Of a stretch of DNA of 36,400 bases, positions 10,928-33,905 are shown one piece after another. How positions within the stretch are numbered: the stretch's first letter is position 1; each line of letters opens with the position of its first letter. The notes below the pieces were generated by a model. It had not been told where the DNA came from, did no database searches, and was given only the letters and a program-made list of their open reading frames with translations. Source of the DNA: Candidatus Gastranaerophilales bacterium (GTDB taxonomy: Bacteria; Cyanobacteriota; Vampirovibrionia; Gastranaerophilales; Gastranaerophilaceae); the NCBI GenBank assembly GCA_944322935.1, contig CALUQO010000027.1, positions 1 through 36,400 on the forward strand. The letters run 5' to 3'. The position numbers and the translations under genes were made by a program.

Positions 10928-13576
10928 CTATTTTATATTTTTCAAGCAGTTTTGCGGTGCTACTATAGTGAATACGTATGGCTGTTCAAAGTATTTGTTA
11001 GCAACACGTATGATGTCTGTAGCTGTTATGCTTTTTACAAGCTGCGGAAATTTGTTTATATAATCATACCCTCTGCCGGAGAGTTCAAACCAGCCGAGAG
11101 TGGACGCTTTTTCCATATTGGTTTCCTGTGACAGTATGAAATTGCCGAGGATTTTGTCTTTTGCTTCCTGCAGCTCTTTGTCTGAAACAAACTCTTTTTT
11201 CAACAGGTTAATCTGTTTTAAAAGTTCGTTTTTGGAATGCTGTGCTGTTTGCGGGTTTGTGCCTATGTAAAGAGCAAATATCCCTTTGTTTACATTTGCC
11301 GCAAAGCTTGAGCCTACCTGATAGGCCAGCCCCTGTTCATCTCTAAGCCTGTTGAACAGTCTGGAGCTCATACCGCCGCCGAGAATAGAATCAATGACCT
11401 GCAATGTTGCCACATCTTTCTGGTTTTCTACGCCATCTGTGAGCCAGCCCATTACTATCCAGGCTGCTTCTACGTCTTTGGCTTTTGTTATGGTTTTGTT
11501 AGCGTTTAGCGGTTTGAAAACGTTTTTGTATGTGCTGTAGTCGAATTTTTGGGCATTTGTTTGCTTATCTAAACAGAAAATTTCTGTAATTGCATTGATT
11601 ATATCGCTGTCGTTAACGTTTCCGTTGACTGATATTACAAGATTTTCGGGATAGAAAAGTGCGTTGTAATATTCAGTAACGTCATTATGATTTATTGTCG
11701 GGATTGTTTTTTCCAGAATCTTGCCTGTAACGCCGTAAGGTGTGCCCTGCCAGATTGCGGTTTTGAATTCTTCCAGCGCAACATTTACAGGCAAATCTCT
11801 GTTTCTCTGGATGGCTTGCAGTTTTTCTTTTTTTACTCTTTCGAGTTCCTGTTCATCCAGTGAGGCGTTATTGACTATTTCGTTTAACAGTTCAAAAGTA
11901 AGCGGAAGGTCGTTTTTTGTTGTTTTTACTGCTACTGTGAACATATCTGAACTGTTAGACGGTTCAATAATTATGCCGTTTTGTTCCATTGTCTGGGACA
12001 AATCAAGTGCGGAATATTTTTTTGTTCCTTTTAACATAAGTTTTGAGGTTATTGAACCGAGCCCAGGTTTTTTTTCTATATAGTTGCCGCCTTTTGAATA
12101 AACTGTCATTGCCACAATATCGTTAAGGTGATTGTGGTTGATAATGAGATTTATGTTACAGGGCAGCTTGTATTGAGAAATTGTTTTGTCTTTTTTTACA
12201 AGCACGGGTTTGTTCGGGTGAGTATGTTTTTTAACGTGGCTTATTGGTTTTGTATTATCCTGACAAGTTTCATCGGGCAGCATTATAGAGATAGCGGCCT
12301 GATTGGGGTTGAGGTATTTTTTTGCAACTCTTATGATATCGTTTTTGGTAACTTTGTTGATGTTTTCTATGTATTCGTCATAGTATTCGGAATCTCCGTA
12401 CACAAGTGTTGTGTAGCCGAGTTCGTTTGCTATGTTAGAGGTGGATTCTCTTGAGTAGAATGTATCTCGCTCAATTATGCTTTTGGCTTTTTGGATTTCT
12501 TTTTCGTCAAAGTTTCCGTTTCTTATTTTTTCAATTTCATCAAAAACAGCTTTTTTTACTTTTTCTTTGTTTATGGGAATGAAGTTGGCTCTGACAAAAA
12601 GAATGCTGTCATCCTTCATAGAGGCGTGTCCTGCGGAAATACTGTAGGCCAGCTGCTGTTGTTCTTTAACTGATTGATATAATTTAGAAGAGCGTCCGTC
12701 GCCGAGTATTGTCGCGAGTACGTCGAGCGCATAGCTGTCAGAACGATCCTGCTGGGGAACACCTCTGAAACCTATTATCATATAGCCTGTTTTTACTTTG
12801 TCATGGGCTGTTACTTCTTTTGATTTTTCAAGGTATTTGTCCTGTTTGTATTCAGGGAGTTTTGTTTTTTTAGCTTCTTTTTTATTGAAGTCATGTTTTA
12901 TTATTTTTAAAGCTTCCTGAGTATTAACATCTCCGACAACAACTGTAATCATATTGGACGGATTGTACCAGGTATTGTAAAAATACAGGATTTCTTCTCT
13001 GGGGATGTTTTCTATAATTTCTTTTTTCCCTATGACCTGTCTTTTGTACGGGTGATTCTGGTAGAGTGATTTTATCATGTTTTCATACAATTTGTTTTCG
13101 GGGTTGTCATTGGTTTTAGAAATCTCTTCTATAACAACTTTTCTTTCTTTTTCGAGTTCTTTGCTCGGGATAAGCGGATTGAGCAGCATATCAGCGTGCA
13201 AATCCATAGCAAGATTAAAATATTTTGACGGAATGGTTATGTAATAATGGGTAAAATCTTTGCTTGTTGCAGCGTTTGTCATTGCGCCTTTGGATTCGAG
13301 TATTTTATCAAACTCGCCTGTAGGGTGTTTTGTTGTTCCTTTAAAAAACAGGTGTTCCAAAAAGTGAGCGACACCGTTGTTTGTGTCATTTTCGTTGATA
13401 GAACCTGTTTTTATCCAGGTGTCGATAGTGACAATCGGGTTGTCGTGAACTTCTTTGATTATAACGGTTTGTCCGTTGTCGAGTTTAAAGGTTGAATAAT
13501 CCTGTGCAAAAGCACACTGTGCAAGGCTGACAAAAGCCACAAGAATTAAAATAAGAAGATTTTTAATATTTTTCAT
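10928..13576 (-). CDS. Secreted two-domain M16 (insulinase-like) zinc peptidase
   Basis: This 882-residue protein has a signal peptide (about 1-24, AFA-Q site) and two M16 halves. The N-terminal half carries the inverted zinc motif HFLEH (71-75) and the third ligand Glu151, at the usual spacing, so it should be catalytic. In the second half the matching position reads SITSK, so that half is inactive. It does keep the RxxxxRDEQGLAY motif near 743-752 that completes the active site of M16B enzymes. In this family the halves form a clamshell that degrades short peptides. Here both subunits are fused, as in PqqL-type proteins. ATG 13576 follows AAGGACGGATT. It is divergent from the HCP-like gene, with a palindromic spacer. 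Confidence 0.88.
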   Translation of the reverse strand: MKNIKNLLILILVAFVSLAQCAFAQDYSTFKLDNGQTVIIKEVHDNPIVTIDTWIKTGSINENDTNNGVAHFLEHLFFKGTTKHPTGEFDKILESKGAMTNAATSKDFTHYYITIPSKYFNLAMDLHADMLLNPLIPSKELEKERKVVIEEISKTNDNPENKLYENMIKSLYQNHPYKRQVIGKKEIIENIPREEILYFYNTWYNPSNMITVVVGDVNTQEALKIIKHDFNKKEAKKTKLPEYKQDKYLEKSKEVTAHDKVKTGYMIIGFRGVPQQDRSDSYALDVLATILGDGRSSKLYQSVKEQQQLAYSISAGHASMKDDSILFVRANFIPINKEKVKKAVFDEIEKIRNGNFDEKEIQKAKSIIERDTFYSRESTSNIANELGYTTLVYGDSEYYDEYIENINKVTKNDIIRVAKKYLNPNQAAISIMLPDETCQDNTKPISHVKKHTHPNKPVLVKKDKTISQYKLPCNINLIINHNHLNDIVAMTVYSKGGNYIEKKPGLGSITSKLMLKGTKKYSALDLSQTMEQNGIIIEPSNSSDMFTVAVKTTKNDLPLTFELLNEIVNNASLDEQELERVKKEKLQAIQRNRDLPVNVALEEFKTAIWQGTPYGVTGKILEKTIPTINHNDVTEYYNALFYPENLVISVNGNVNDSDIINAITEIFCLDKQTNAQKFDYSTYKNVFKPLNANKTITKAKDVEAAWIVMGWLTDGVENQKDVATLQVIDSILGGGMSSRLFNRLRDEQGLAYQVGSSFAANVNKGIFALYIGTNPQTAQHSKNELLKQINLLKKEFVSDKELQEAKDKILGNFILSQETNMEKASTLGWFELSGRGYDYINKFPQLVKSITATDIIRVANKYFEQPYVFTIVAPQNCLKNIK

Positions 13577-13722: not shown

Positions 13723-15339
13723 ATGTTTAACAAATTTTCTGATAAAAACTTTTGGACTGATTACGGTGATAATATGTCATACAACGATTGTGCAATAGAC
13801 GGTTTTTGTAGTATAGACCCTATTGTTTATTCGCTTATGGAGGTTTTGCTTTATGAATTAAAGCAGATTACTTACTATTACATAAAAATGCAGGAACTCG
13901 GCTATGAAAATAAAAAGTTGAAAAACCAGATTATGAACTATTTGTCGGTGGTGTTAATCGGATATGAATTCAACCGCAAGGAGTTTGAGGATTTGATTTA
14001 TAAAATCCACAGCGAAAAAGAATCAGTCAAAGAAGCTTATATTGCAATCTGTGACAAGGAAAACATAGACTGTCAGATTTTGAAATCCAATATAGATTTT
14101 AAAAAGTTTAATATGTCTACTATTGTTCAGCAGGGAGAACAGCAGGCTGTTTTAAGAAACAAAATTTTAAACTCGGATGTAAAAAATATCTATGAGATAA
14201 TTCTGAATCTGATTAAAAGTGCAAGTATAAGGCTTGTGGAGCTAAAATCTTACACCGATGACTACGTACCCGAAGAAGACGCAATATTAAAACTGTTTAA
14301 CAGCTTGAATTTTTCCGCTATACAAGAGTCCAAACTTCTTAGAAAAATTCATGATTTTGCAAAGATAAATTTTCAAATTCATCAAAAATTGCATCAGCTT
14401 AAAGAAGAATATTACGGCATAATCTCTTTAAACGATGTTCAAATCGGTGTGGACAAAGGCAAGTCCATACTTGTTTCAGGTCAGAATTTAAAAGACTTAG
14501 AAAATCTTCTCGAGGCGTTAAAAGACACGGATGTAAATGTTTACACCCATAACGGGCTTATTGTTGCACACGCTTATCCGAAATTTGAAAACTTTCCTAA
14601 TTTAAAGGGACATTATCAGATGTCGCTTGATAACGTACAGTATGATTTTACCTCCTTTAAAGGGCCTGTTCTTGTTATCAGAAATTTTCAATATCTTCTG
14701 GACAGACTTTATCGCGGAAGAATATTCACTACGAATATAATCGGCGGAAAGGGTATGACCCGTGTTGACAACAACGACTTTTCAAAACTTATTCAAACTG
14801 CGCAGGAAAGCGAAGGTTATAAAGACAACCATAAAATAACCACTGTGAAAGTAGGCTATGATGAAAATATCGTTATGCAAAAGGTGGACAAGCTTATTGA
14901 AAAGATTGAAAATAAGGAGATAAAACATCTTATAATAATCGGGCTTTTAAACCACGCTGCTATGCATAGCGAATATTTCAGCGAAATGGAAAAACATCTG
15001 GGTGATGATTATTTTGTCATAAGCACTGTAATGACAGCCAAAAAGGATAATGTTTTGTATTTTGATTCTTTTTTCAATTCTTCTTTGATTTACAAGATAC
15101 TTTCGCACATTAAAAATCATGTTGATTTTGAAAAATTCCCCGTGAGTGTGTTTATTACCACATGCAATCTGCACACAATGTCGCATTTGTTTAATCTGCG
15201 TTATCTCGGGATAAAAAATATCTATCTGCCTGTTTGTACGGCCAATATTTTGACACCTAACATGCTTGAATTTTTAAAATCAAAATTTAATGTAAGACAG
15301 GTATCTTCGAATCCCCAAAAAGATTTAAAGAGCCTTTGA
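13723..15339 (+). CDS. Hybrid cluster protein (HCP) homologue lacking the cluster ligands
   Basis: The full length aligns with Hcp (hydroxylamine reductase/NO reductase family). Matching stretches include SGQNLKDLENLLE (252-264), VNVYTH...AHAYPKF (271-288), GRIFTTN (332-338) and GIKNI...LTPNMLEFL (496-518). The usual hybrid-cluster ligands are replaced: His by Gln254, Glu by Gly278, and the cysteines by Phe322, Leu409, Met437 and a Cys-free stretch around 448-455. The terminal Glu/Lys pair becomes Asn482/His484. The N-terminal CxxC is gone and only Cys23 and Cys29 remain there. Fold kept and chemistry lost: a probable pseudoenzyme. The frame is intact for 538 codons, so it is not a decayed gene. 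ATG 13774, with GGTGAT upstream, is an alternative start. Function unknown. Confidence 0.8.
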   Translation: MFNKFSDKNFWTDYGDNMSYNDCAIDGFCSIDPIVYSLMEVLLYELKQITYYYIKMQELGYENKKLKNQIMNYLSVVLIGYEFNRKEFEDLIYKIHSEKESVKEAYIAICDKENIDCQILKSNIDFKKFNMSTIVQQGEQQAVLRNKILNSDVKNIYEIILNLIKSASIRLVELKSYTDDYVPEEDAILKLFNSLNFSAIQESKLLRKIHDFAKINFQIHQKLHQLKEEYYGIISLNDVQIGVDKGKSILVSGQNLKDLENLLEALKDTDVNVYTHNGLIVAHAYPKFENFPNLKGHYQMSLDNVQYDFTSFKGPVLVIRNFQYLLDRLYRGRIFTTNIIGGKGMTRVDNNDFSKLIQTAQESEGYKDNHKITTVKVGYDENIVMQKVDKLIEKIENKEIKHLIIIGLLNHAAMHSEYFSEMEKHLGDDYFVISTVMTAKKDNVLYFDSFFNSSLIYKILSHIKNHVDFEKFPVSVFITTCNLHTMSHLFNLRYLGIKNIYLPVCTANILTPNMLEFLKSKFNVRQVSSNPQKDLKSL

Positions 15340-26595: not shown

Positions 26596-28113
26596 TTATT
26601 TGTTTTTGCCGGTGTATTCATATACTCTAAAGCCTTCATACTTAACAATTGCGGGCTGGCTCTGGAAAATAAGTTTGTAATCCTTAAGTTCCGTCACCTC
26701 CATTTTGTAAGTATCAAATGCGGGAATAATTGCATATATTTTTTTATTTTTAAAATCGGCGTTTTTTTCTATTTCGAGTCTGGTATATTCAGCCCAGCCC
26801 AGTTTGCTTAATATATAAAAGAGTTTTTCATCCCAGATAACATACTTTATATAGTATCTGTGCGCAACCGAATAAATTTTTCTTTTTCCGTCAAGATAAT
26901 AAACAAGCCCCATGACATGAGGGTCATTATCCGTAATAAGTATTGAATTTTCGGGATCTATATTTTTTTCAATATATTTTGCCGTTTCTATTGCGGAAGA
27001 ATAGTTATATTTAATATCGAGAACAGAGTATTTAACACCGTTCATAAACATAAAAATAAAGAACAGAGAAAGACAAATATTTATTGTTGTCTTAACTTTT
27101 GAAGAAATATTTTCCTTATTCATTAACAGCCAGAAGGCAAATATCAGTATGATATGCGCACAAAAGATTCTGTTAACAAAAACCCAGTGATTGTATCCTA
27201 TAACATACACAACCAGCTGGAAAAGTATGCTGAAAAATGTTATAACAAAAAGCTTTTTATCCTTTAGCAATAAAAGAATAAACATAATTACATAAATCAC
27301 AGCCGAAAGCAGGATGGCGGGAACATTTAAAAGCGGAAACATTATAGTGTTATATTCCGGCCACTGGTTATCAACGGAATTTATAAAAAACTGGCTCAAA
27401 ACTTTTACAACACTTACTATTAAACCGCTCGTATCAATTTTTATTACAACATTGCTCGAGGTCGTACCATGCAGCTGCGCTACAACGGCAAGAAGCCCTA
27501 TACACATTATTCCAAAGGCCGTAAGATATTTTTTTAATGTAGTTTTATCTATTTCTTTTCTTACTTTAAACCAATTTTCATATAAAAAATCCAGAGTTAA
27601 AAAACCGCAGAATACAAGCATTATTATATGTGTATTTGCGAGTATAAATATTAATGAAGCGTATATAAAAGGGTGTTTTTTGGCCTTCGGGTATAATATT
27701 GCCAGCAAAAAGACAAGAAGGGGTAAAATGGAATAACTTCTTGCTATAACCGGAAAAAAGTACAAAAAACCGGCGCTGGTTACTATTGCAAACTTAGCAA
27801 ATTTTCCGAAAGGCGAAAACTGCAAAAATATAAACACGCTTGCCGTCATACAAAACCAGCAGAATATTTGCATAAACATTATAGGCAGGTGTAATTTTGC
27901 AAAAGGCATCATCAACAGATAAAAGAAGGAGGGATGCCCTTCGTTTACAAGATGTTTGAAAAGCTCAAAAACATTCAAATGTCTAACAAGCTGCCAGACT
28001 TGAGCTTCATCCGCCCAGGTTTCGTGGTGCAATACAATTATTAAAGTAAAAATTGCATACAATGCTGTAAAAATTATATTTTTGATTAATGTCTTTTTGC
28101 TTTCTTCCATCAT
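26596..28113 (-). CDS. Polytopic GT-C-like membrane protein, array member 5
   Basis: A 505-residue membrane protein with about ten hydrophobic helices and a C-terminal outside domain of roughly 120 residues (from about 385). After helix 1 comes HHETWADEAQVW (29-40) with an Asp-Glu pair (35-36), then NEGHPSFFYLL. An acidic motif in the first periplasmic loop and a downstream His is the usual GT-C catalytic pattern, in which a sugar is taken from a polyprenyl-phosphate donor. It is paralogous to the next two genes upstream (28190-29671 and 29691-31097), sharing also ARSYSILPLLVFLLAI and NTHIIM. ATG 28113 has a weak GAAGAG site, and a second ATG follows at once. Acceptor unknown. Confidence 0.78.
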   Translation of the reverse strand: MMEESKKTLIKNIIFTALYAIFTLIIVLHHETWADEAQVWQLVRHLNVFELFKHLVNEGHPSFFYLLMMPFAKLHLPIMFMQIFCWFCMTASVFIFLQFSPFGKFAKFAIVTSAGFLYFFPVIARSYSILPLLVFLLAILYPKAKKHPFIYASLIFILANTHIIMLVFCGFLTLDFLYENWFKVRKEIDKTTLKKYLTAFGIMCIGLLAVVAQLHGTTSSNVVIKIDTSGLIVSVVKVLSQFFINSVDNQWPEYNTIMFPLLNVPAILLSAVIYVIMFILLLLKDKKLFVITFFSILFQLVVYVIGYNHWVFVNRIFCAHIILIFAFWLLMNKENISSKVKTTINICLSLFFIFMFMNGVKYSVLDIKYNYSSAIETAKYIEKNIDPENSILITDNDPHVMGLVYYLDGKRKIYSVAHRYYIKYVIWDEKLFYILSKLGWAEYTRLEIEKNADFKNKKIYAIIPAFDTYKMEVTELKDYKLIFQSQPAIVKYEGFRVYEYTGKNK

Positions 28114-28189
28114 TTCTTCTCTTCTTGCTGTTGTTAAAAAACTTTTATTAGTTATTTATACTATAAAAAAGCCTTAAATATCAGTTTTA

Positions 28190-29671
28190 TTAATTGCCCG
28201 TGCCCCCTGTATATTGATAAACTCTAAAGGCCTCGCCGGATACAATTGACGGAGAGGACTTGAATATAAGTTTATATTTTTCAGGCAAAGTCTTTTCCAG
28301 ATGATTTGCGTCAAGCAAAGAAGAAACAAGCACATATGCTGCAGATGGAGCATGTTTTTCTATTGATTTTTCCACATATTCGGAAAAATCGTTGTCCGGT
28401 CTTATCATTTGTTTGTACCAAATCATATATTTGATTTGTTTGTCAGTGTAAGCACTATAAAATTTGTATTGAGGCAGATACAAATATACTGCAAGCGGGC
28501 AAGCCTCAAGATTAGGAATAATCAAAGAATCTTGAGCAATATTGTTTTTAATAAACTCTGCAGTTTCTTTTGCGCTTGAATAATTGTAAGTGTAATCTAA
28601 AATGGCCGATTTTATTCCGCACCAGCAGGTGAGCACAAAGAAAAGCAAAATCACTATATTATCGAATAATTTAATTTTTTGTGTGCTCGCATTCGCCGCC
28701 CAGTATCCGAAAAGTATAATTAGATATGCACTAAAAATTCTTGTTTGATACAACATAACTTTGTAGCTAAAAATATATATAAAAAATTGAAAAACAATAC
28801 CGAACAAACAGATAACGCTTATTTTTTTATCATAGAAAAACAACCTCACTAAAAGTATTAAAAAAATAACGGCTTCTAAAGAGGCAAAAACAATATTTGC
28901 AGCTGTTATTTTGTAGTCGGAATATGCACTGACAAAAACAGTATCCGTTGCATTAAGAAAAAACACGCTGACCGTTCTTATAAAATTTAATAAACAGTTA
29001 TTTGTGTCGAAGGTTATTGCACCGTTTGATGACATTGTTGTACACAGTTGCAATACAACAGCAGCAAGTCCGCAAATTATAATCAAAGAAGAGGTTAATA
29101 TCTTTTTGTCGAAATTCCTGAGCCTTTCAAGGTTTTCGTACATAAACAAAATCCCCAGCCCGAATACAAAGGCATACATTATAACATGCGTGTTTGTTGT
29201 TAACACAAGTAAAATTGCGTACCAAAAGGGGTGTTTGCCGGATTTTGGATATACAATTGCCAAAAGAAAAACCAGCAGAGGCAATATTGAATAACTCCTT
29301 GCTATTACGGGGAAAAAATACAAAAAACCGCCGCTTATTATTATTGCAATTTTTGTTAATTTATTAAACGGTGAATATGTTAACAGCAAAAAAACACTCA
29401 CCACACTGCTGAGCCAGCATAAAAACTGCATTGTCGCTACGGGAAAATTAAGTTTTGCAAAAGGCATTACAAGCAAATAAAAGAATGACGGATGTCCTTC
29501 ATTAACAAGATGTTTGAACAAACTGAAATCAAATACGGATAAATTTTTTGCTATAAGCCAGACCTGCGCCTCGTCCGCCCAGATTTCATGATGCAGCACA
29601 AAAATTATTGTACAAACGGCGTATAAAAAAGTAAGTGTAATATTTAAAATTAAATTTTTCTTGTTTTCCAT
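28190..29671 (-). CDS. Polytopic GT-C-like membrane protein, array member 4
   Basis: A 493-residue paralogue of its two neighbours: HHEIWADEAQVW after helix 1, NEGHPSFFYLL, then ARSYSILPLLVFLLAI are nearly identical to the 26596-28113 protein. The C-terminal domain (from about 365) is much more diverged, apart from an ETAEFIKNNI start and a GEAFRVYQYTGG end. This suggests a shared donor and catalytic core with different acceptors. ATG 29671 follows GGTGAT. The gap to the upstream gene is only 19 bases, so the two are co-transcribed. The likely location is the inner membrane, with the active site facing the periplasm. Confidence 0.78.
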   Translation of the reverse strand: MENKKNLILNITLTFLYAVCTIIFVLHHEIWADEAQVWLIAKNLSVFDFSLFKHLVNEGHPSFFYLLVMPFAKLNFPVATMQFLCWLSSVVSVFLLLTYSPFNKLTKIAIIISGGFLYFFPVIARSYSILPLLVFLLAIVYPKSGKHPFWYAILLVLTTNTHVIMYAFVFGLGILFMYENLERLRNFDKKILTSSLIIICGLAAVVLQLCTTMSSNGAITFDTNNCLLNFIRTVSVFFLNATDTVFVSAYSDYKITAANIVFASLEAVIFLILLVRLFFYDKKISVICLFGIVFQFFIYIFSYKVMLYQTRIFSAYLIILFGYWAANASTQKIKLFDNIVILLFFVLTCWCGIKSAILDYTYNYSSAKETAEFIKNNIAQDSLIIPNLEACPLAVYLYLPQYKFYSAYTDKQIKYMIWYKQMIRPDNDFSEYVEKSIEKHAPSAAYVLVSSLLDANHLEKTLPEKYKLIFKSSPSIVSGEAFRVYQYTGGTGN

Positions 29672-29690
29672 CCAATCACCGATTAATTTT

Positions 29691-31097
29691 TTATTTTCCG
29701 TAAATCTGTTTACGTGTTATATGATAAATCGAAAATTTTTCCTGCTGCGTAAAAACATTGCCTGACGAAGTGTAAATTGGTTTTATGTCTTCATAAAAAG
29801 TTCCGAGGCTTAAAATAACATAAATATCGTTTCTGTTTTTTAAATAATCCGCTAACGGCAAAGGCGCAAACCCAGGAGGAAGGTCTTTATCCCATTTTGA
29901 ATAAGTATAATAATCCTTATACCCGTGATAATAAAATTTCCATTTTCCTTTATTCTGCGGCAAGTAAACGCTAATTGATGTTGTATTAAGCGGGTAATTT
30001 GAGGCAATAAAGGCATCCTGCGGAATGTGGGTTTTAATAAACTCTGCGGTTCTTTTTCCGTCAGAAAAATTATCTTTTAAATCCTGCTTAATAAGAGTCA
30101 AGCCCCCTGAAAACGACGGCAGAAAAGCAAATAATATTGCAATATTTAGCACCGTTTTCCATTGTTTTCCCAAATCGCCAAACATAATCCAGAAACAAAA
30201 AATAATCACAAGAAAAAGAGTATAAATGCGCTGCGGAATTTGCCCCCATATATACATGTATAAACCGAATTGAAAAATTATATTAAAAACATACAAAAAC
30301 AACATCTGCCTGTTTTTTATTGCAGTTGTTATCAAGCCTAAAACTGTAAAAACATAAAATATTAATGTATAAAAAGGTGTTACATTGCTGTATATGTTTA
30401 AAACGGCCCTGTCAAGGGCAAAAGCTACATTCTGACGAAATGGAAGCGGCGCGGAAGATTTTACAATTATATTTTCGTTCTGGCTGCCCCACAGATATAA
30501 ACTGATACACGCAAAAGATGCAAGCATCAAAGACGCTGCTATAAGGGATTTTTTATCTCTGTTGTTGTAAAGAAACAGAATTGCCAGTCCGGTACAAAAA
30601 CCGAGCATTATTATATGTGTATTGGCCAGCAAAATTATCAGCAATGCGTATATAAACGGATGCTCTTTTTGTTTTTTGTATAATATTGCAATCAAAAACA
30701 TAAATAACGGGATAAAGCAGTAACTTCTCGCTATTACCGCATACCAGTATAAAAAACCAGAACTCAGCAATAAAGCGGACTTGCTTAAAAAGTTAAACGG
30801 TGATTTAAACATCCAAATCCCGAGCGCAACCACCACCACAAGCCAGTTTATAATTTGCATTACCATTGCCCCCTGCAGCGGAAGTTTTGCAAAAGGCAGC
30901 AATACAAAGTACCACAAAAGCGGATGACCCTCTGTTCTGACATGTTCAATTATTCCGAGTATATTCAAATCTCTTACAACAAGCCAGGCCTGCGCCTCAT
31001 CCGCCCAGATTTCGTGGTGCAGCACAAAAATAAGGGTACAGACTGCGTACAAAAAGATAATCAGACTATTTAATAATATTTGTTTTTTATTTTCCAT
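29691..31097 (-). CDS. Polytopic GT-C-like membrane protein, array member 3
   Basis: The third paralogue, 468 residues from ATG 31097. HHEIWADEAQAW is kept, but the next motif is TEGHPLLWYFV in place of NEGHPSFFYLL, and the helices differ more, so it split off earlier than the other two. ARSYCFIPLFMFLIAI and NTHIIM are conserved. The C-terminal soluble part is short and rich in Tyr and Lys. A GTG at 31103 with AGGA upstream would add two residues. The ATG is preferred because the paralogue also starts MENKK. It sits 17 bases downstream of a DUF2142 gene in the same array. Confidence 0.77.
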   Translation of the reverse strand: MENKKQILLNSLIIFLYAVCTLIFVLHHEIWADEAQAWLVVRDLNILGIIEHVRTEGHPLLWYFVLLPFAKLPLQGAMVMQIINWLVVVVALGIWMFKSPFNFLSKSALLLSSGFLYWYAVIARSYCFIPLFMFLIAILYKKQKEHPFIYALLIILLANTHIIMLGFCTGLAILFLYNNRDKKSLIAASLMLASFACISLYLWGSQNENIIVKSSAPLPFRQNVAFALDRAVLNIYSNVTPFYTLIFYVFTVLGLITTAIKNRQMLFLYVFNIIFQFGLYMYIWGQIPQRIYTLFLVIIFCFWIMFGDLGKQWKTVLNIAILFAFLPSFSGGLTLIKQDLKDNFSDGKRTAEFIKTHIPQDAFIASNYPLNTTSISVYLPQNKGKWKFYYHGYKDYYTYSKWDKDLPPGFAPLPLADYLKNRNDIYVILSLGTFYEDIKPIYTSSGNVFTQQEKFSIYHITRKQIYGK

Positions 31098-31114
31098 CCG
31101 CACGCCGCTAATTC

Positions 31115-32491
31115 CTAATAGTAATAAACGATTATAATAATAAATGTCATAAAAAGTAAAAATTGTGCTGCCAACAAAAGAATGGCCGGTATTACTTTAT
31201 TTTCAGTTTGTACTTTTTTAAAGCTAAATAATAGTAATAATAGAGGCAAAAGCGGGGTAAGATAACGCCCCTGTATCCCGACAATATACGGGGTTGTCTG
31301 ATATATCAGATACACCGATGTCATTATCAAAACATGGCAGAGTAGAAATGCTATTACAAATACCGCTTTATTATTTAAGCTAAAATAGGGATTTTTTTCG
31401 CTTTGATTGCCGCAAAATACGGACAAAAACATTAAAAACCATGTTAAATGAGCGGCAAAAGGCGGTATCATAACAAGATTTCCCCCGACGCTCGAAACAA
31501 CATTGTAATATAAGAATTTTTTTAAATATAAACTGGATTTTATAACAAGTAATATATAATTAAACGGTGCTGCAAGAATCTTTTTTATCATCTCAAAACT
31601 GCTTAACAGTTTATTTTTAAAACTATACTCGTTTAACCCCTTTGCACCCATCACACCCATAAGAAAACATGTTAATAAACAGAAATTCACCAGAATTAAT
31701 ACGGCAAAATTTCCATAATACAATTTTGATGATTCGAACTTTGTTTTGGGAATTAAAAAATACAACAAAACTAAAGGAAAATAAGCAAATTTTAAAATTC
31801 CTATACAGGTAATTAAAATATCCCATATTAGTATTTGTTTTCTATTGATTTTAACAACGCTTTCACTAAATGCAAGTTTTAATGTGTTTGCGCAAAAAAG
31901 CATTACAAACCCTAATGTTATACCGTCCGTGCTTATTGCTGCGGCCTGATAAACATTAATCGGCAGTAATGCCAAAAACAAAAACATCCATTTTTTGCAC
32001 GGAGTGAGTCTTATTGCATAATACGTAAGCGCCATATACACAAGCAGTGAGCAAAACCTCAGTATGTACATCATAAAAAGAGGTTTGATATTTAAAAGTT
32101 TCATTATCCACAAAACAATAAATGACGGGAAGTAAGATAATGGTGTATAACTTGTTGCTCCGAATTTTACAAAGATTTTATCATCTTTTTTTAAAGGCAA
32201 TTTTGAATATTTAACAGTTTCAATCAATGGAATTTTTTTATTCGAATAAACATACTGAGAATAAAAATTATAAATCTTACTGATGCTTTCAGGCAGCTCC
32301 ACTCCGCTCCATCCGTCTTTAATGGTATGTCTTAAAGTTCCCTGGGTGTAGCCCCACATCTTAAAAAAATGTCCTGATTCGTCAGGTGCCTGAAAAGGAG
32401 GATTAACAAGCAAAAACACAATGCCCCAAAACAAACAAAATATTAAAAATAAATTTTCGCATTTAAACAATGTATTTTTTATGTTGCTCAT
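31115..32491 (-). CDS. DUF2142 polytopic membrane protein, array member 2
   Basis: A 458-residue inner-membrane protein of the DUF2142 family, GT-C-like proteins found in polysaccharide loci. NPPFQAPDESGHFFKMWGY (30-48) places an acidic PDE motif directly after helix 1, and YTPLSYFPSF (about 111-120) and GIQGRYLTPLLPLLLL (near 407-422) are the other family signatures. About eleven hydrophobic segments are visible. It is a close tandem paralogue of the next gene upstream (32538-33905), which shares the whole motif set. ATG 32491 has no ribosome site at proper spacing, and AGGAG lies 19 bases upstream. It is probably translated from the shared array mRNA. Confidence 0.8.
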   Translation of the reverse strand: MSNIKNTLFKCENLFLIFCLFWGIVFLLVNPPFQAPDESGHFFKMWGYTQGTLRHTIKDGWSGVELPESISKIYNFYSQYVYSNKKIPLIETVKYSKLPLKKDDKIFVKFGATSYTPLSYFPSFIVLWIMKLLNIKPLFMMYILRFCSLLVYMALTYYAIRLTPCKKWMFLFLALLPINVYQAAAISTDGITLGFVMLFCANTLKLAFSESVVKINRKQILIWDILITCIGILKFAYFPLVLLYFLIPKTKFESSKLYYGNFAVLILVNFCLLTCFLMGVMGAKGLNEYSFKNKLLSSFEMIKKILAAPFNYILLVIKSSLYLKKFLYYNVVSSVGGNLVMIPPFAAHLTWFLMFLSVFCGNQSEKNPYFSLNNKAVFVIAFLLCHVLIMTSVYLIYQTTPYIVGIQGRYLTPLLPLLLLLFSFKKVQTENKVIPAILLLAAQFLLFMTFIIIIVYYY

Positions 32492-32537
32492 TTTTAGTAA
32501 TACAAAAACTCCTTTATCCTGTCCGAATTAAACCCTT

Positions 32538-33905
32538 TTAAGCATACAAACCAATTATAGTAACAAACATGCACAAAAGCAAAAGCTGTGAAACAAAGAA
32601 TAAAAATACGGGAACTAATCTATTCTTTATACATTTTTTTTGTGACACAAACACAAGCAGCCCGAATAACAGCAGCGGGGTAAGATATCGTCCCTGAATA
32701 CCAACAATGTATGTTTTGCTTTTGTATATCAAATATACAGATGTAACAATTACCAGATAAGAAACAAGAATAGCCGCAATAATAAGGCTCTTTTGTTTTA
32801 AATTTATTTTACAAACCTGTCCTTGAACTGTTCTGTAAAACACCGACAAAATTAAAGCGATATAAGCAAGATTAACCGCAAAAAACGGTATCATTTTAAA
32901 GAAAACACTAACGCTTGAAACAATGTTTCTGTATATAAAACCTCTTAAAATATATGTTGATATAACAACTTTTTTTAGATAGTCCAAAGGAGAGTGTATT
33001 ATCTGTTTAATTAAATCCGTTTTATCATTAATTAAAAATATTTTTGTGTGTTCATTCATTACAGGGGTACTCATTACGGCGGATAAAAACGCCGCAATCA
33101 ACAATACACTCAACCCTGCAATGACAAATAAATATTTGAAATACTGTTTTTGAGAGGCAAATTTTTCTTTTGGTATTAAAAAATAAACAACAATAACAGG
33201 GAAATAAGCGTATTTTAAAATACAAATATACGCAAATAATATGCCCCACAGCAGAATCTTTTTAATATCTATGTTTTTGATATTTTCATCAAAAGCCAGC
33301 TTTAAAGTGTAAGCAAAAAATAATATTATTAATCCGAATGTAAGTCCGTCCACACTGACTGATGCCGCCTGATAAATATTTACGGGCAGCAGCGAAAACA
33401 ACCAGATTGTCCATTTTAAACACGGAGTAATTTTTATAGCACAATAACATAAGGCCAAATACACAAGCAAAGAACAAAACCTTAAAATATACATCATCAG
33501 CAGTGGTTTTATATTCAAAAGTTTTAAAATCCATAACACAATAAAAGACGGAAAATATGATAAAGGTGTATAGCTCGACGGATTAAAATTTAAAAATGCG
33601 GTTTTTTCTTTTTCAAGAGAAAGCTTGTTTGCCCGCATTGATGCTTTAAAAGGAATTTTTGTGTCAATTCTTCTGTAATAATCGTAAAAATTATACAAAT
33701 TCACAAAACTTTCAGGCAGCACCTGCCCGCTTATTCCGTCTTTTATTTGATGCCTCAATGTTCCCTGCGTAAATCCCCACATCTTAAAAAAATGTTCAAA
33801 TTCATCAGGGGTTTGAAACGGCGGATTAATAAATAAAAATATTACTCCCCATATCAAACAAATCAGCAAAAATAAATTTTCTGTTTTAAATAAAGTTTTT
33901 TCCAT
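32538..33905 (-). CDS. DUF2142 polytopic membrane protein, array member 1
   Basis: First gene of the minus-strand array, 455 residues. INPPFQTPDEFEHFFKMWGF (26-45, with PDE at 33-35), YTPLSYFPSF and GIQGRYLTPLLLFGLLVF match its downstream twin, indicating tandem duplication. The region after the PDE loop (50-105), which faces the periplasm, is the most diverged part between the twins. ATG 33905 lies only 25 bases from the divergent gtrA ATG, with at most TAGAG as a ribosome site, so the array promoter either lies within gtrA or gives a very short leader. Confidence 0.8.
   Translation of the reverse strand: MEKTLFKTENLFLLICLIWGVIFLFINPPFQTPDEFEHFFKMWGFTQGTLRHQIKDGISGQVLPESFVNLYNFYDYYRRIDTKIPFKASMRANKLSLEKEKTAFLNFNPSSYTPLSYFPSFIVLWILKLLNIKPLLMMYILRFCSLLVYLALCYCAIKITPCLKWTIWLFSLLPVNIYQAASVSVDGLTFGLIILFFAYTLKLAFDENIKNIDIKKILLWGILFAYICILKYAYFPVIVVYFLIPKEKFASQKQYFKYLFVIAGLSVLLIAAFLSAVMSTPVMNEHTKIFLINDKTDLIKQIIHSPLDYLKKVVISTYILRGFIYRNIVSSVSVFFKMIPFFAVNLAYIALILSVFYRTVQGQVCKINLKQKSLIIAAILVSYLVIVTSVYLIYKSKTYIVGIQGRYLTPLLLFGLLVFVSQKKCIKNRLVPVFLFFVSQLLLLCMFVTIIGLYA

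Follow-up and report, generated by a model that had tools for sequence, protein, structure and literature searches.

The window analyzed here, meaning the whole stretch of DNA of 36,400 nucleotides, corresponds to a single contig from a genome of 2.3 Mb and 99.8% completeness. Relatives that hold the gene described below are named Candidatus Gastranaerophilales or Melainabacteria, which are non-photosynthetic kin of the cyanobacteria, and they are mostly metagenome-assembled genomes from gut and rumen. The gene is an open reading frame of 538 codons that runs from ATG to TGA with no internal stops (Table 1), a length for which the chance at the local base composition is ∼1e-17; its start is uncertain, being either the ATG at 13723 or an in-frame ATG at 13774 (residue M18). 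The product is a cluster-free homologue of the hybrid cluster protein (Hcp), and the gene is referred to below as the hcp-like gene. It stands alone, with a divergent M16-type protease gene on one side and a convergent glycosyltransferase gene on the other, and a promoter and terminator scan around it gave no signal above that of shuffles. No conserved functional neighbour was found in the window's own genus. The M16-type peptidase gene (window 10928–13576, minus strand) is a nearly constant divergent neighbour across this genus. Elsewhere in the window, a run of three mutually similar multi-pass membrane proteins (26596–31103, minus strand) and two further mutually similar multi-pass membrane proteins (31115–33905, minus strand) are probably encoded by tandemly duplicated glycosyltransferase-type genes; these runs are followed by plus-strand ORFs of the GtrA-like and glycosyltransferase types.

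Table 1. Features of the hcp-like gene in window coordinates
Feature	Position	Strand	Basis or remark
Cluster-free Hcp paralogue	13723..15339	+	538 aa; ORF, profile, alignment, model
Cys23, third Cys of N-terminal [4Fe-4S] motif, retained	13789..13791	+	C in 91/105 family sequences
Cys29, fourth Cys of N-terminal motif, retained	13807..13809	+	C in 92/105 family sequences
Cys110, YxxxCxxxN, end of helical-domain helix	14050..14052	+	96% of 105; no canonical Hcp equivalent
Gln254 at His244 ligand position	14482..14484	+	Alignment
Gly278 at Glu268 ligand position	14554..14556	+	Alignment
Phe322 at Cys312 ligand position	14686..14688	+	Alignment
Leu409 at Cys406 (persulfide) ligand position	14947..14949	+	Alignment
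Met437 at Cys434 ligand position	15031..15033	+	Alignment
Cys481, one residue before vacated Glu494 position	15163..15165	+	96% of 105; covaries with Cys505
Asn482-Leu483-His484 in place of Hcp Glu494-Gln-Lys496	15166..15174	+	Alignment
Cys505, after next beta strand	15235..15237	+	94% of 105; covaries with Cys481

A preliminary description of the locus had taken the protein for a full-length Hcp homologue in a clean 538-codon frame, and profiles, alignments and predicted fold all bear this out. The Pfam Prismane family (PF03063) matches at 1.1e-35 (123.7 bits against a cut-off of 27), and two NCBIfam hydroxylamine-reductase models match residues 19–537 at 1.5e-69 and 1.8e-68, with scores that miss their equivalog cut-offs (235.1 against 367 bits and 231.3 against 360.8 bits). 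A PDB sequence search matched 8CNR (2e-40), and pairwise alignments with solved Hcps span residues 20–537. An AlphaFold2 model built from 83 family sequences (pLDDT 85, pTM 0.85; residues 1–30 poorly modelled) has the HCP/CODH fold over its full length, with a Z-score of 30.7 over 506 residues against 1E1D and a Foldseek match to solved Hcps at 5.9e-29.

None of the seven hybrid-cluster ligands (one His, two Glu and four Cys) is present in the window protein in either pairwise or multiple alignments, whereas all seven are found in every one of the 29 canonical Hcps of the reference set. The replacements named beforehand (Gln254, Gly278, Phe322, Leu409, Met437, Asn482/His484 and the loss of the fourth Cys) were each upheld against the canonical proteins; Asn482 stands for the Glu and His484 for the Lys, and the remaining ligand, Cys459, falls in a shortened Cys-free stretch that is a real deletion. 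An alignment error hiding the ligands is ruled out, since canonical Hcps align in the same way pairwise and in multiple alignments, and the fourth-site Cys lies in this deletion. With the Hcp ligand set as it is known, the protein cannot assemble a hybrid cluster. Many invariant positions (G253, Y274, G296 and F309 among them) belong to the scaffold common to canonical Hcp. The N-terminal CxxC had also been reported as lost; this holds for the first CxxC of the four-Cys [4Fe-4S] motif, but the second pair, C23 and C29, which had gone unmentioned, is retained, leaving two of the four cysteines. Across 105 sequences of the family, 69 keep none of the seven hybrid-cluster ligands and the maximum kept is three, and 86 members are devoid of all four cluster cysteines.

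The gene is nevertheless intact and constrained, as had been argued from its clean frame. Of 23 genomes of the genus that were searched, the window's own among them, 22 have an intact orthologue; the exception (L017) has a flagged TAG within the last few codons of the match. A codon model gave an omega of 0.049 over 22 same-genus orthologues, compared with 0.044 for the canonical form, represented by 11 Hcps of the genus. Values of 0.01–0.13 were obtained when cluster-free sequences were compared in close pairs; in wider pairs the synonymous sites are near saturation, so that the omega values are approximate. Relaxed selection on the cluster-free Hcp is excluded, and the gene is under strong purifying selection.

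In a profile search, the cluster-free form was detected in 105 of the 107 sampled genomes of the window's family. Canonical Hcp is present in about 76 of 191 family genomes (∼40%), and three genomes that are 99% complete (G012, G016 and G019) hold the cluster-free form only. A true Hcp elsewhere in the window genome, a possibility raised in the preliminary description, was found and has every ligand (G000:C5:18547-20055). Divergence of the cluster-free form between genera is fast (∼30% identity). In a quick tree with long branches, the cluster-free forms of the order are monophyletic with respect to canonical Hcps (SH-aLRT 100). Of nine Hcps retrieved from photosynthetic relatives within the phylum, eight are canonical and one (L197) is partly masked. 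The cluster-free Hcp is an ancient paralogue of Ca. Gastranaerophilales. Two other families of the order, f7 (L043, L046 and L049) and f6 (L072, L174 and L178), have Hcp paralogues of their own with partial ligand loss and without the C481/C505 pair, some of which retain the N-terminal four cysteines, Cys312 or Cys406; these paralogues may be surviving intermediate states. One genome holds three tandem cluster-free copies with diverged cysteine sets (L033, G032:C145, 4611–9482; also L098), together with a canonical Hcp elsewhere.

Comparison of the 105 family sequences with the 29 canonical ones revealed three near-invariant cysteines of the cluster-free family, C110, C481 and C505, that have no counterpart in canonical Hcp, in which position 481 is Tyr (97%) and position 505 is mostly Thr. 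Both C481 and C505 are present in 100 sequences and neither in eight, with three discordant (108 of 111 concordant); Fisher's test gives 9e-10 for the association, and the corrected mutual information of the two columns ranks 27th of 115,510 pairs, relatedness of the sequences being allowed for in neither figure. Phylogenetically independent contrasts were concordant in all three cases (p = 0.25), which are too few for significance. C505 alone is lost in two sequences, where it is replaced by Trp. C23 and C29 covary with each other and not with C481, and C110 shows a weak association with C481 (Fisher 7e-4). In the 105-sequence comparison, the new cysteines had no fourth invariant Cys or His as a possible partner. 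A Zn site of the CxxH type (C481/H484) is ruled out, as H484 is not conserved. In the model, a strand (474–477), a helix (485–494) and a second strand (499–502) form a beta-alpha-beta unit, and the strand ends that carry C481 and C505 should be adjacent to each other at the former cluster pocket, a proximity suggested by this topology together with the covariation. In genus g42, some members (L171, L175 and L177) are without both C481 and C505 and others (L179 and L180) have both; those without the pair still retain the hcp-like gene, and the genus constitutes a natural experiment on the role of these two residues.

Gene neighbourhoods were compared in 80 loci, each retrieved with flanking sequence of at most 5 kb; 63 of these loci lie outside the window's genus. 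A glutaredoxin gene is situated directly upstream on the same strand in 33 of these 63 loci, at a distance of 1–16 bp in 32 of them and with an overlap of 20 bp in the other, and this arrangement recurs in eight of the 13 other genera sampled. It is missing in about half of the loci outside the genus, and in the window's own genus the hcp-like gene has no adjacent glutaredoxin (0 of 22); the window genome encodes two unlinked glutaredoxins as well as glutathione synthesis genes. Among 41 glutaredoxin copies, the motif is CPYC in 34, CPFC in two and CPYS in five. The upstream genes fall into two subfamilies (24 in g14 and nine in g20), both assigned to glutaredoxin by Pfam, one being nearer GST_N_3 and one classical, and the two kinds sit in separate gene contexts (wecB/rpsG/rpsL and yebC/TPR). 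A glutaredoxin would rarely come to lie beside one particular gene by chance, and two forms of the arrangement are seen here. Since dithiol glutaredoxins have a broad range of targets, the operon does not by itself make the product of the hcp-like gene a direct substrate. The other recurrent neighbours (rpsG/rpsL, wecB, yebC and a MinD-like gene) look like unrelated housekeeping genes.

From the lost ligands and the clean frame, a non-redox role in binding, regulation or structure had been proposed at the outset. This proposal is unsupported: the gained cysteines, the joint occurrence and joint loss of C481 and C505 and the glutaredoxin operon point to thiol redox chemistry rather than to a non-redox role. 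The explanation put forward, tentatively and at slightly below an even chance, is that a former Fe-S-O Hcp enzyme has turned to thiol/disulfide chemistry served by glutaredoxin, as a neofunctionalized paralogue. At the root of the Gastranaerophilales, one copy of Hcp was stripped of its Fe-S-O hybrid-cluster ligands with the fold kept, and the three near-invariant cysteines were gained in the window's family. According to the proposed explanation, C481 and C505, in the loops after two consecutive strands at the former cluster site, would form a redox-active dithiol/disulfide or, alternatively, might bind a thiol adduct (S-glutathionyl, S-nitroso or persulfide). Glutaredoxin and glutathione would reduce the pair back after turnover, Cys110 would act as an auxiliary thiol, and C23/C29 may be a second, partly dispensable dithiol. 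The wider claim of a lineage-wide conversion, in which an Fe-S-O metalloenzyme gave up its metal for thiol redox chemistry while its fold stayed the same, with a Cys pair at the cluster site and a glutaredoxin partner from two subfamilies, is possible and is advanced with somewhat more reserve. Because canonical Hcp is tied to NO reduction and protein nitrosylation (PMC10210160), a role in handling nitrosative or oxidative stress linked to thiols is a natural guess, suggested by the ancestry.

Several other explanations have to be weighed against glutaredoxin-served thiol chemistry. The protein may be a true pseudoenzyme, namely a catalytically dead Hcp scaffold that serves for binding, regulation or structure and in which the new cysteines are structural, for example as a disulfide replacing the stability once lent by the cluster. 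The loss of all cluster ligands would fit such a scaffold, as would the many invariant positions held in common with canonical Hcp (G253, Y274, G296 and F309 among them) and the combination of fast divergence between genera (∼30% identity) with strong purifying selection within the genus. However, the near-invariant cysteines occur in a protein without a signal peptide, purely structural cysteines of this kind being unusual in the cytoplasm of an anaerobe, and the glutaredoxin operon is found in two different arrangements; a pseudoenzyme is considered unlikely, if still a serious contender. It is rather less probable that C110, C481 and C505, with or without C23/C29, make up a different metal site, occupied by Fe, Zn or a small Fe-S cluster that the neighbouring glutaredoxin might deliver. 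This idea draws on the number of conserved cysteines, on C23/C29 being two of the four old [4Fe-4S] ligands, on the weak association of C110 with C481 (Fisher 7e-4) and on the new Cys motifs and changed active-site ligands of related Ni-CODHs (PMC6344411). Against it, C23/C29 vary independently of C481, and the 105 sequences yielded no fourth invariant Cys or His partner. Furthermore, the neighbouring glutaredoxins are dithiol CPYC types and not of the CGFS type, which is the one known for cluster delivery.

The window genome holds both forms of Hcp, as would be expected if the cluster-free protein assisted the cell's own canonical Hcp as a partner or maturation subunit. This is highly improbable and is ruled out by distribution: the canonical protein is present in ∼76 of 191 family genomes, whereas the cluster-free form is nearly universal and occurs by itself in the 99% complete genomes G012, G016 and G019. 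Hardly any probability attaches to a decaying pseudogene or a chance assembly artefact; the loss of all catalytic ligands and the stop near an end in a few orthologues would agree with decay, but it is ruled out by the omega of 0.049 over 22 species, the intact frames and the near-universal presence in the family (105 of 107 genomes).

Among known systems, Hcps of classes I and II (hydroxylamine/NO reductase; PDB entries 1E1D, 1E2U, 8CNR and 7DE4) have the fold in common with the window protein over its full length (Z ∼30 over ∼505 residues) at 20–23% identity, and the scaffold motifs SGxxL, YTH and TPN/SPN are kept. Unlike these enzymes, the window protein has neither the hybrid-cluster ligands nor the first CxxC and has three new conserved cysteines, and in many genera its family has a glutaredoxin neighbour. 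The core HCP domain is also common to class III Hcp (PDB entries 7E0L and 7WSX; Z = 28.3 over 392 residues), which is without ∼100 middle-region residues that the window protein has and, unlike it, retains all cluster ligands (PMC10502027). Ni-CODHs whose active-site motifs are altered (for example CooS-V and clades in which the C-cluster ligands are incomplete) have the same superfamily fold (Z ∼16) and set a precedent, since their cluster ligands have changed and new Cys motifs have arisen (PMC6344411). However, they keep most cluster cysteines, whereas the window protein keeps none and falls within the Hcp branch. With glutaredoxin-coupled thiol enzymes in general, the present case has in common a conserved Cys pair and a dithiol glutaredoxin in the same operon. 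To our knowledge, no such enzyme is known on the Hcp fold.

The open-access literature searched describes no Hcp family without cluster ligands, in agreement with the earlier statement that no described Hcp pseudoenzyme was known. The Hcp/CODH superfamily has been studied as a group of metal-cluster enzymes, and a deeply conserved ligand-free branch shows that the scaffold is useful without that cluster. The cluster-free Hcp is also a clear example in which to study how an enzyme shifts from metal to thiol chemistry. In gut Melainabacteria, a 'hydroxylamine reductase' or Prismane label on the hcp-like gene would mislead, and mislabelling of this kind affects the predictions of nitrogen and nitrosative-stress metabolism that are made from gut metagenomes.
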